From: Methylotenera sp. | GTDB taxonomy: Bacteria > Pseudomonadota > Gammaproteobacteria > Burkholderiales > Methylophilaceae | Length of the DNA stretch: 64,000 nt | Assembly (NCBI RefSeq): GCF_029946165.1 | Contig: NZ_JAQSDZ010000001.1 | Span: 1 to 64,000, forward strand | Reading direction: 5' to 3' | Part shown: piece by piece, positions 3,293 through 40,732 of the stretch | Position numbering within the stretch: the first letter of the stretch is position 1 | Layout of the letters: each line of letters starts with the position of its first letter | The notes under the pieces: generated by a model | What the model saw: the letters and a program-made list of their open reading frames with translations, nothing else | Told to the model about the DNA's origin: nothing | Databases searched by the model: none | Translations under genes and position numbers: made by a program

Positions 3293-5122
3293 CTACTTCC
3301 CAAGTGCGTAAACCACAATATTATCGCCAGCAGTATAGCCAAATATAGAATTACCCCCTGCAGCGACTGCTACATACTGCACACCATCAATTTCATAGCT
3401 GATAGGTGGCGCATTAACACCTGCATCGACTTTAGTTTGCCACAATAAGTCACCTGTATTGCTGTTGTATGCATTAAAGTTGCCGCTGCCCTCACCCATA
3501 AATAACAAGCCGCTTTGAGTCGCAAGCAAGCCGCCCATCAAAGGCTGCTCAGTTTTAACTTGCCATCGCATTTTTCCTGTTGCAAGATTGATTGCTGAAA
3601 TCACGCCCCAACGCGGGTCTTTAGTTGGTTCAGACGATGCATATCGAGTAGAGGGCTTGCCATCCAGAGCATCCTCTTCCACTAAGGTATATTTAATGGG
3701 CGCATGTATACCAGCTACAAAACTGGTTTGATTATGCTCATCTAGCGCACTAGGGCTCCAGTTTGATCCACCTAAAATCCCAGGGTAAAGTACAGTGCCT
3801 TCTTTACTTGCTTTAGCAAAAAGATTTTTTTGTGGTACGAATGCATCAGACTTCATCAGCAGCTTACCAGTTGCTCTGTCGTTAACGTAATACCAACCAG
3901 TTTTACTGGCCTGCCCTACGGCAGCAATAGGCTTGCCGTCCTTCTTATAATCAAACAACACGGGCGGACTCGCTAAATCATAACCCCATACATCGTGTGG
4001 TACCTGCTGATAGTGCCATTTAAGCTTGCCTGTTTCAGTATCTAAAGCAATTAGAGAAACTGTATACAGATTATCCCCAGGACGAGAAATGTCGTTCATT
4101 TGCGGCGAAGGATTACCCGTACCAAAAAAAAGCGTATTGGTTTTAGTGTCAATAGCAGGCGTGCTCCAAGCAGAACCTCCGCCAAAGCGCCAAGCGTCTT
4201 TATTATTCACCATATTAGCTTTTTCAGCAGCAATATCTCGATTGAGCGAGATACCGTCTGAAGTTGTTTCAGCAAATACGCCCTCCCAACCTTGCGTTGG
4301 AATGGTATCAAATGTCCAAATACGCTTGCCACTAGCAACATCATAAGCAGCCAAGAAGCCTGGGCGACCATAACGGCCATCAACACCAACCACAGCACCT
4401 AGAGGTGCATTGACTGTTGGTTGGTCAATGTGCAGGCCATAACCCACTCCTGTTATGCCAACAATGACCTTGCCATGATAAACGACTGGCGCCATCGCGA
4501 TACCGACGCCCGTACCGCCATAGGCTTCTTTATGGCTTTTAGCGTCTGCCTGACTTAATGAGCTGGTTTTTTCTGTTAATGCCGTGTCATCGGCAACATC
4601 AATATCCCAAATCTTTGCGCCACTTTTAGCATCAAGTGCAATCAAGCGCGCGTCAACCGTACCAATAAATACTTTACCACCACTTACTGCCACGCCTCTA
4701 TTTGCAGGGCCACAGCACATTTTCCAATTCGCCCTACGCTCATGTTGATAGCGCCAAAGCTCTTTACCCGTTTTGGCATCTAATGCAACGACATGATTGA
4801 AAGGTAAAGCTACATACATGAAGCCACCAGTGACGATAGGTGTGGCCTGAAAACTTGCAACAACGCCACTTTTGAATTGCCAAGCCAGCTTTAAGTTTTT
4901 AACGTTTTGTGGATTAATTTGCGTGAGTGGAGAAAGCCGCTGATTTGTAAAATCACGGCCAAAACTTGGCCACTCTTTATCTGTACTACTTGATTGAACA
5001 TTTATTTGCTTAGTAGGAGAGCTACTGCATGAAAGCATTGCGACACTACTTAACAAAACTAAACCAAATAAACCAAATAAACCAGCATTACTCAACTGCT
5101 TGCATTGTAAAAGACTGCGCAT
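3293..5122 (-). CDS. PQQ-dependent dehydrogenase-like quinoprotein, divergent active site
   Basis: Eight-bladed propeller type with W-motif repeats, vicinal Cys in KMCCGPANRG, and FGTGNPSP. ATG at 5122 has a strong SD (AAGGAAGG) and leads into a signal/lipoprotein-like N-terminus. Confidence 0.85.
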   Translation of the reverse strand: MRSLLQCKQLSNAGLFGLFGLVLLSSVAMLSCSSSPTKQINVQSSSTDKEWPSFGRDFTNQRLSPLTQINPQNVKNLKLAWQFKSGVVASFQATPIVTGGFMYVALPFNHVVALDAKTGKELWRYQHERRANWKMCCGPANRGVAVSGGKVFIGTVDARLIALDAKSGAKIWDIDVADDTALTEKTSSLSQADAKSHKEAYGGTGVGIAMAPVVYHGKVIVGITGVGYGLHIDQPTVNAPLGAVVGVDGRYGRPGFLAAYDVASGKRIWTFDTIPTQGWEGVFAETTSDGISLNRDIAAEKANMVNNKDAWRFGGGSAWSTPAIDTKTNTLFFGTGNPSPQMNDISRPGDNLYTVSLIALDTETGKLKWHYQQVPHDVWGYDLASPPVLFDYKKDGKPIAAVGQASKTGWYYVNDRATGKLLMKSDAFVPQKNLFAKASKEGTVLYPGILGGSNWSPSALDEHNQTSFVAGIHAPIKYTLVEEDALDGKPSTRYASSEPTKDPRWGVISAINLATGKMRWQVKTEQPLMGGLLATQSGLLFMGEGSGNFNAYNSNTGDLLWQTKVDAGVNAPPISYEIDGVQYVAVAAGGNSIFGYTAGDNIVVYALGK

Positions 5123-5163
5123 ACAACCTTCCTTTGGACTCATCAATAGCATTTAAAATTTAA

Positions 5164-38483: not shown

Positions 38484-38501
38484 TTCGGGTTAACAATTGT
38501 A

Positions 38502-38542
38502 TTGAACATGTGTCACGCAACACCTTGTTCAACATTGACACA
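38502..38542. promoter_or_regulatory. candidate enhancer/UAS dyads upstream of xoxF
   Basis: TTGAACA (38502-38508)/TGTTCAA (38526-38532) and TGTGTCA (38509-38515)/TGACACA (38536-38542), 119 nt or more upstream of the -24 box. Confidence 0.5.
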
Positions 38543-38660
38543 AGTATAAAAAAATTAATGAATATCTAAACTACGCAAATAATCACTCAGTAAAAATAGT
38601 TGATTGATTTTAAACCATTTTATTCAACTTAAACCACTTTATATCGCTCATTTCTTATGT

Positions 38661-38676
38661 TGGCACATCAATTGCA
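38661..38676 (+). promoter_or_regulatory. sigma-54 (-24/-12) promoter TGGCACATCAATTGCA
   Basis: Matches TGGCAC-N5-TTGCA exactly; 90 nt upstream of the xoxF ATG. Confidence 0.88.
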
Positions 38677-38765
38677 ATAACTACATTGCAACAGTCGTTA
38701 AAAATACTTTTGAGTGCGCGACATGAGCAACACATAACTTAAAAAATATTATATTTGAGGAAATT

Positions 38766-40652
38766 ATGAACCATCAATTTAAACGTAAATTTGGTGCTGG
38801 CCTAGCGTTAAGTGCAGGACTTTTTGGCTTAATGAGTACACCTGCTTTTGCTCAAGACGAGCAATTAAAACTAATGAACGATGATAATCAGTGGACGCAA
38901 CAACGTAAAGATTACAGCAACACTGGTTATAGCCGTTTGTCACAAATCAATAAAACTAATGTTAAGAAATTAAAACTTGCTTGGTCATTCGCAACGGGTG
39001 TTAACCGTGGTCATGAAGGCGCGCCGTTAGTGATTGGCGACATGATGTACATCCACACGGCATTTCCCAATAATGTATATGCTTTAGACTTAAATAATGA
39101 TCAAAAAATCGTTTGGTCATATTTTCCAAAACAAGATGCAAGTGTTCAAGCAGTATTATGTTGCGACAACGTCAACAAAGGCTTAGGTTATGGCGATGGC
39201 AAGATTTTCTTGCAACAAAATGACGGTGTACTTGTTGCGCTAGATGCAAAATCAGGTAAGGTTATTTGGGATACAAAAGTAACTGACCCTAAATCAGGCT
39301 CATCAAACACTAATGCCCCGCATATATTCAAAGACAAAGTCATTACAGGCTGTTCAGGTGGTGAATTTGGTGTGCGTTGTTATATCACTGCATACAACAT
39401 TAAAGATGGTGCATTGATTTGGCGCGCTTATAGCACGGGGCCAGACGAAGAAATGTTGATTGGGAAAGACTTCAATACAGCAAATCCGCACTATAGTGCA
39501 TTATCAGTTTATCAAGATGTGAACGGCGGCAATAAACTAGGTGGCTCATTCAAGGCTATTCCTAAAGAAAAGCTGAAATATCCAGAAGCTAATTTAGGCG
39601 TAAGAACTTGGTTAAAACCACAAGCTAGACAAGAGGGATGGCAAACAGGTGGCGGCCCTACATGGGGTTGGTACTCATATGACCCAGCGCTTAACTTGAT
39701 GTACTACGGTACTGGTAACCCAGGCACTTGGAATCCAGATGTACGCCCTGGTGATAACAAATGGTCTATGACTATTTTTGCACGTGACTTAGACACAGGC
39801 ATGGCAAAATGGGGCTACCAAATGACACCTCACGATGAGTGGGATTATGATGGTATGAATGAAATTGTTTTATGGGATGCGAATGGCAAAAAATTAGCAT
39901 CTCACTTCGACCGTAACGGCTTTGGTTATACATTTGACCGTACTGATGGTACTTTGTTAGTCGCTAAAAAAATGAATCCTTTCGTTAACTGGGCAACTTC
40001 TATCGACATGAAATCAGGTGTGCCGATTAAAGACCCAAAATACTCAACTCACCAAGACTACAACGCGCAAGGCATTTGCCCATCTGCATTAGGCGTTAAA
40101 GATGAACAACCTTCAGCTTTCTCACCACGCACAAAAATGTTCTACGTACCGCTTAACCATGTATGTATGACTTATGAGCCAGTTGAATCTAAATACGTAG
40201 CTGGTCAACCATGGGTTGGTTCAACATTAACCATGTTTGCTGGCCCTGATGGTGTAATGGGCGGCTTTATGGCTTGGAATGGTTTAACAGGTAAATCTGC
40301 TTGGTATAACAAAGAAAAATTCTCAGCTTGGGGCGGCGCATTAGTAACAGCTTCAGACTTAGTGTTTTACGGCACTTTAGATCGTTGGGTTAAAGCACTT
40401 GATGCCAAAACAGGTAAAGAGCTTTGGAAATTCCAAGTAGGCTCTGGCGTTGTTGGTAATGCCATTACCTATGGTCACAAAGGTAAACAATACGTTGGAG
40501 TGCTATCAGGTATTGGTGGCTGGGCTGGTGTTGCAATGAACCTAGGCTTAACCAATGAAACCGATGGCCTAGGTGCCGCTGGTGGTTACAAAGAGTTAAC
40601 TAAGTACAATGCAGCGCCAGGTGGCGGTGCAATGAATGTGTTTAGCCTATAG
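38766..40652 (+). CDS. xoxF: lanthanide-dependent methanol dehydrogenase XoxF
   Basis: Signal peptide; CCDNVNKG; GCSGGEFGVRCY; YYGTGNPGTWNPD; HDEWDYDGMNE (extra Asp of the lanthanide type). Confidence 0.95.
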   Translation: MNHQFKRKFGAGLALSAGLFGLMSTPAFAQDEQLKLMNDDNQWTQQRKDYSNTGYSRLSQINKTNVKKLKLAWSFATGVNRGHEGAPLVIGDMMYIHTAFPNNVYALDLNNDQKIVWSYFPKQDASVQAVLCCDNVNKGLGYGDGKIFLQQNDGVLVALDAKSGKVIWDTKVTDPKSGSSNTNAPHIFKDKVITGCSGGEFGVRCYITAYNIKDGALIWRAYSTGPDEEMLIGKDFNTANPHYSALSVYQDVNGGNKLGGSFKAIPKEKLKYPEANLGVRTWLKPQARQEGWQTGGGPTWGWYSYDPALNLMYYGTGNPGTWNPDVRPGDNKWSMTIFARDLDTGMAKWGYQMTPHDEWDYDGMNEIVLWDANGKKLASHFDRNGFGYTFDRTDGTLLVAKKMNPFVNWATSIDMKSGVPIKDPKYSTHQDYNAQGICPSALGVKDEQPSAFSPRTKMFYVPLNHVCMTYEPVESKYVAGQPWVGSTLTMFAGPDGVMGGFMAWNGLTGKSAWYNKEKFSAWGGALVTASDLVFYGTLDRWVKALDAKTGKELWKFQVGSGVVGNAITYGHKGKQYVGVLSGIGGWAGVAMNLGLTNETDGLGAAGGYKELTKYNAAPGGGAMNVFSL

Positions 40653-40701
40653 TTTTTAAGTAAATAGCAGTTGTTAATTAAATAGTTAAGTAAAAGCGAA
40701 A

Positions 40702-40732
40702 AAAGAGCCAACTTTACGTTGGCTCTTTTTTT
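40702..40732 (+). terminator. rho-independent terminator after xoxF (also T-rich in reverse)
   Basis: AAAGAGCCAAC-TTTAC-GTTGGCTCTTTTTTT. Confidence 0.88.

Follow-up and report, generated by a model that had tools for sequence, protein, structure and literature searches.

The lanthanide-type methanol dehydrogenase gene xoxF4-2 of this Methylotenera sp. contig is concluded, from its sequence context, to be driven by RpoN and a divergently encoded activator. The whole model comprises a sigma-54 box, a TGT-N11-ACA enhancer, the divergent activator, probable alcohol or aldehyde sensing and a single origin in the XoxF4-2 clade, and we hold it with high confidence. Methylophilaceae are common partners of methanotrophs, and how they choose among several XoxF enzymes is the question on which the model bears. 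The model would bring a one-component, metabolite-type input into a field ruled by two-component and lanthanide-switch models.

Promoter, activator and enhancer upstream of xoxF4-2

The features discussed below are collected in Table 1; the window designates the whole 64 kb stretch of DNA that was analysed. The -24/-12 box is separated by 89 nt from the xoxF ATG at 38766, and its GG and GC elements are spaced by exactly 12 bp, with flanking consensus. The exact pattern TGGCAC-N5-TTGCW occurs a single time in 64 kb, as the xoxF box. In first-order Markov copies, a box matching at least 11 of the 12 positions arises by chance in a 300-bp gap with P ~0.00055, while relaxed boxes (up to two mismatches) are present in the window at their expected number, and such loose matches were left unused. 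Genome-wide, TGGCAYN5TTGCW returns 37 hits versus 4 for the reversed control pattern; this enrichment and the one gene for RpoN in the genome make a functioning sigma-54 regulon likely. The near-perfect box reported in the initial annotation therefore stands: the sequences quoted with it were all found in place, and the box is conserved at 36 of 36 loci (see below). A chance origin of the box is rejected on this conservation in relatives.

Table 1. Features of the xoxF4-2 locus and its divergent activator (window coordinates).
Feature	Position	Strand	Basis or remark
AcoR/DhaR-like one-component sigma-54 activator, 641 aa	36540-38465	-	ORF, Pfam, orthologue alignment
First, irregular enhancer dyad TGTGTCACGCAACA, putative	38509-38522		footprint alignment
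Main enhancer dyad TGTTCAACATTGACACA (TGT-N11-ACA), putative	38526-38542		centre ~128 bp upstream of -24; alignment, conservation
Weak IHF-like site AATCAACTATTTT, one mismatch to WATCARNNNNTTR	38593-38605	-	
Sigma-54 -24/-12 promoter TGGCACATCAATTGCA (= TGGCACatcaaTTGCA)	38661-38676	+	read directly, unique in window, conserved
Predicted 5' untranslated leader	38687-38765	+	inferred start, 12 nt past the -12 GC, to ATG
GAGGA ribosome site	38757-38761	+	sequence read directly
xoxF4-2, lanthanide-type methanol dehydrogenase, 628 aa, DEWDYDG	38766-40652	+	motif, structure matches, tree
Terminator-like hairpin, A-/T-tracts on its two sides	40699-40731		between xoxF and convergent alcohol dehydrogenase gene

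Pfam analysis of the divergent gene product reports a GAF domain, a Sigma54_activat AAA+ domain, an AAA lid and a DNA-binding Fis-type HTH (HTH_8), and no receiver domain; both the GAFTGA loop and the Walker motifs are present in the AAA+ domain. This bears out the complete AcoR-like activator with GAFTGA and Fis-type HTH initially annotated, except for its start: close orthologues align from ATG 38465, which is therefore more likely than TTG 38483. All 35 orthologues examined have an intact GAFTGA (or GAYTGA) loop and an intact Walker A motif. The N-terminal, GAF-type sensor region matches the DhaR structure 4lrx, and together with the lack of a receiver domain it places the protein among the AcoR/DhaR-like one-component activators; the full-length DhaR model, however, matches with 304 bits against a cut-off of 551, and the activator falls short of every named equivalog. 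Its neighbour here is xoxF, not aco genes.

Regarding the enhancer, nested inverted repeats had been put forward as a candidate upstream activating sequence. The repeats TTGAACA/TGTTCAA and TGTGTCA/TGACACA are indeed present at 38502-38542, and an upstream site is conserved in this segment, but the nested dyad is not the enhancer unit and is replaced by TGT-N11-ACA. Taken alone, the three 7-mer repeats show no excess over chance (P ~0.24), so that the enhancer site rests on conservation; likewise, a lone TGT-N11-ACA is expected by chance in ~23% of such gaps. In other genera, the counterpart of the first, irregular dyad is a full TGT-N11-ACA lying immediately before the second dyad, and this tandem arrangement is present in L018, L020, L021, L135 and L117. 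Among 30 exact-consensus boxes examined in the genome, only that of xoxF has a dyad at enhancer distance, which makes the activator look gene-specific. Enhancer look-alikes with up to three mismatches are in modest excess (40 versus 25 in the control). A wider regulon of the activator in its own genome was considered and set aside on these two counts, and no further target is claimed. The IHF block is perfect in 11 relatives versus 0.8 expected; nearly all of them belong to one genus group, and it is absent in the others.

Conservation across Methylophilaceae and confinement to one XoxF clade

A search for the activator in 120 Methylophilaceae genomes returned 30 loci, including the window's own. 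In all 30 the activator is divergent from an xoxF gene, which carries a sigma-54 box 84-139 nt before its start. A second activator group (L130-L134, 50-54% identical) is likewise divergent from xoxF with a box. Together with L136, these loci bring the activator-linked xoxF genes to 36, in seven genera. With a threshold of at least 10/12 matches and strict GG/GC, every one of the 36 has the box, located ~75-140 nt ahead of the start codon, as well as a TGT-N11-ACA 112-143 bp upstream of the -24 element, the latter being found also at the orphan xoxF of L135. Conversely, none of 40 sampled xoxF genes of the same family without an activator neighbour has a sigma-54 box, and 5 of these 40 have the dyad at any position. 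The resulting Fisher P value for linked versus unlinked genes (1.6e-22) is descriptive only, since the 36 linked loci share ancestry. The main weight lies instead in the joint retention of box and dyad while much of the gap has diverged: in the alignment of intergenic regions, the enhancer and the box are the main conserved islands. The initial proposal that RpoN and a divergent AcoR-type activator control xoxF, made from the window alone, is thus extended by sequence comparison to seven genera and narrowed to one XoxF clade. Of note, the activator of L136 (genome G071, contig C28) is an interrupted gene, split into two frames and with one in-frame TGA, whereas its xoxF, dyad and box are intact; G071 also carries a second, intact pair, L132.

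The window protein matches solved XoxF structures and has the extra Asp two residues past the catalytic Asp (DYD in DEWDYDG). When 83 XoxF sequences are placed on a tree, a single branch (support 89) separates the sigma-54-associated genes from the others, which amounts to one change. The window gene falls together with the mmol_1770-type gene and outside XoxF4-1. Within the sigma-54 clade, the gene of genome G078 precedes one for a 108-aa cytochrome c, just as mmol_1770 precedes the cytochrome c gene mmol_1769 (PMC3728764), which identifies the clade as XoxF4-2 of the published scheme (PMC6028718); from this gene order and the cytochrome of 108 aa beside the gene, we infer that G078 is M. mobilis JLW8. 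Copies of XoxF4-1 examined (mmol_2048 type, in the xoxJG cluster, L216) have no sigma-54 box, and among the sequences compared only the XoxF4-2 clade has the promoter-activator pair. The XoxF4-1 copy of the window's own genome lies on contig C17 (93% identical). This genome comprises five PQQ-dehydrogenase genes, four of them XoxF-like with DYD and the fifth distant at 33%. None of the five is MxaF-like, and the classical mxa/xox switch would therefore be without its Ca-enzyme partner here. The window encodes, at 3347-5151 on the minus strand, a distant PQQ-dehydrogenase-like protein (33% to the window XoxF) with a lipoprotein-like N-terminus. Small c-type cytochrome genes (~106-162 aa) lie downstream of xoxF4-2 in many genera (L207, L209, L210, L212-L215), but no such gene follows it in the window or in its close relative L208.

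Origin of the pair, proposed mechanism and signal

The xoxF-linked activators form one clade, with the window's own (L007) inside, nested within AcoR-type activators of aldehyde dehydrogenase genes. Its sister, L117, and the next Methylophilaceae activator clade adjoin an aldehyde dehydrogenase gene, in most cases accompanied by a DUF779 gene, and these nearest relatives are divergent from the aldehyde dehydrogenase genes. The promoter-activator pair probably arose once, when an AcoR-type activator that belonged to an aldehyde dehydrogenase gene was recruited.

In the mechanism that we propose, the one-component activator would bind TGT-N11-ACA and the adjacent irregular dyad (38509-38542), and its N-terminal GAF region would sense a small molecule, for which an alcohol or aldehyde with a link to methanol oxidation is the probable candidate. 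Ligand on the GAF region would free the AAA+ ring sitting on the enhancer. Through DNA looping over ~128 bp, perhaps IHF-aided in some genera, the GAFTGA-bearing ring would remodel the sigma-54 closed complex and open the promoter. RNA polymerase-sigma-54 would then transcribe xoxF4-2 from the box at 38661-38676, with transcription beginning near 38687 and probably ending at the hairpin at 40699-40731. The nearest activators adjoin aldehyde dehydrogenase genes divergently, which makes an alcohol or aldehyde signal plausible, and on this kinship we somewhat favour such a ligand. The sensor residues contribute little to this point, as a single position splits the xoxF-type from the aldehyde dehydrogenase-type activators, and it is uninformative.

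It is rather unlikely that sigma-54 and the activator drive xoxF4-2 in response to lanthanide availability or to redox or respiratory state. XoxF4-2 requires light lanthanides (PMC6028718), GAF domains bind varied signals, and this gene type responds to lake-like conditions, not to methanol alone (PMC3728764); however, the aldehyde dehydrogenase genes beside the nearest activators speak for another signal, and a general lanthanide signal would be ill-suited since the core lanthanide enzyme XoxF4-1 is devoid of the box. Lanthanides may nevertheless have an input via the sensor or on activator expression.

Two exceptional genomes bear on the roles of dyad and box. In G018, xoxF4-2 (L135, 5771-7643) has no adjacent activator and is preceded by two tandem TGT-N11-ACA and a 12/12 box, which ties dyad and box to xoxF. 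The only close activator in this genome, L117 (5486-9162), adjoins an aldehyde dehydrogenase gene; the same pair of tandem dyads recurs at this locus, again together with a sigma-54 box. G018 is therefore a possible two-target intermediate, and we tentatively entertain, at somewhat less than even confidence, that the whole XoxF4-2 clade answers to a sigma-54 activator that senses an alcohol or aldehyde and was captured from an aldehyde dehydrogenase gene, G018 being the surviving intermediate. XoxF4-2 would in that case be a substrate- or product-induced enzyme beside the core XoxF4-1, which has no such control. Conversely, G062 carries two identical copies of the activator region (L128 and L129) that have lost the neighbouring xoxF, kept the dyad and let the sigma-54 box decay; a phosphoesterase-like gene now adjoins the activator. 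The patterns of L135 and L128 suggest that the box follows xoxF while the dyad may serve both genes, i.e. it may control the activator and xoxF together. That the conserved dyads mainly control the activator gene itself, another factor driving xoxF4-2, would agree with L128/L129 and with the position of the dyads just ~45-75 bp before the activator start, but it is very improbable given that L135 has dyads and box before an xoxF without adjacent activator, and that the dyad-to-box distance is held within its narrow range. A chance box with a sigma-70 promoter driving xoxF has in its favour one 9/12 sigma-70-like match (38660-38687) that overlaps the box, but it is still less credible, as such matches stand at shuffled level (6 found versus 6.5 expected) and the sigma-54 box is in every linked xoxF and in none of the controls.

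Published expression and related systems

Expression data published for the XoxF4-2 gene type, with 4-fold to 100-fold changes between laboratory and lake-like conditions and no regulator named (PMC3728764), fit a conditional promoter: mmol_1770 is up 4-6 fold and msip34_0016 up 100-fold in situ, while m301_1208 has very low expression under all conditions tested (PMC3728764). The window gene is most like the m301_1208 type, both being without a neighbouring cytochrome, and the low expression of m301_1208 counts against the model. As M. mobilis xoxF4-1 and xoxF4-2 mutants exist (PMC6028718), the promoter, enhancer, activator and sigma factor now named for xoxF4-2 are testable by deletion in this species.

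The component parts are of known kinds, and what is new is their use on a lanthanide methanol dehydrogenase clade; no report of xoxF under sigma-54/rpoN, or of AcoR with methanol or quinoprotein dehydrogenases, was found in the open-access literature, subscription papers being mostly uncovered. In Ralstonia solanacearum, AcoR and the acetaldehyde dehydrogenase ExaC (Rsc3129/Rsc3128, a predicted pair) form a predicted sigma-54 unit for ethanol catabolism, and growth on ethanol needs rpoN1 (PMC4676750). As here, a GAF-AAA+-Fis one-component activator adjoins a gene that has a sigma-54 promoter and encodes an enzyme oxidising alcohols or aldehydes, and the ExaC-type activator relatives are sister groups of the window's activator. 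The targets differ, the XoxF enzyme being periplasmic and lanthanide-dependent whereas ExaC is a cytoplasmic aldehyde dehydrogenase. BmoR of Thauera butanivorans, likened here by description and not by sequence, is an alcohol-sensing sigma-54 activator acting on the bmo promoter by looping from an enhancer ~190 bp upstream (PMC8899819); unlike here, it controls an alkane monooxygenase. The nearest precedent found, as far as its citation in PMC6115532 describes it, is the sigma-54-dependent PQQ alcohol dehydrogenase gene exaA of Azospirillum brasilense (Singh 2017), whose regulator is LuxR-type, not AcoR-type AAA+, and whose dehydrogenase is a different one. The soluble methane monooxygenase likewise combines a C1 oxidation enzyme with a sigma-54 promoter and an adjacent activator, MmoR, which in Methylocella also has a GAF domain; the enzyme and the lineage are others, and the activator gene there is found in the operon or close to it (PMC5874634). 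MxaY and PedS2/PedR2 control lanthanide-dependent dehydrogenase genes, as proposed for the activator here. PedS2/PedR2 is a two-component system, and both switches are bound up with the choice between Ca and Ln, whereas the activator described here is a one-component sigma-54 type and its genome has no MxaF.

Outside Methylophilaceae, where relatives were sampled only, the matches listed include PQQ-dehydrogenase genes that carry sigma-54-like boxes and lie near AcoR-like genes; they come from Paraburkholderia, Pseudomonas, Azoarcus and Nevskia. In Nevskia sp. (L082; 507-2315, 4563-7004), a 55% XoxF has a 12/12 box ~200 nt upstream and an AcoR-like gene ~2.2 kb downstream.
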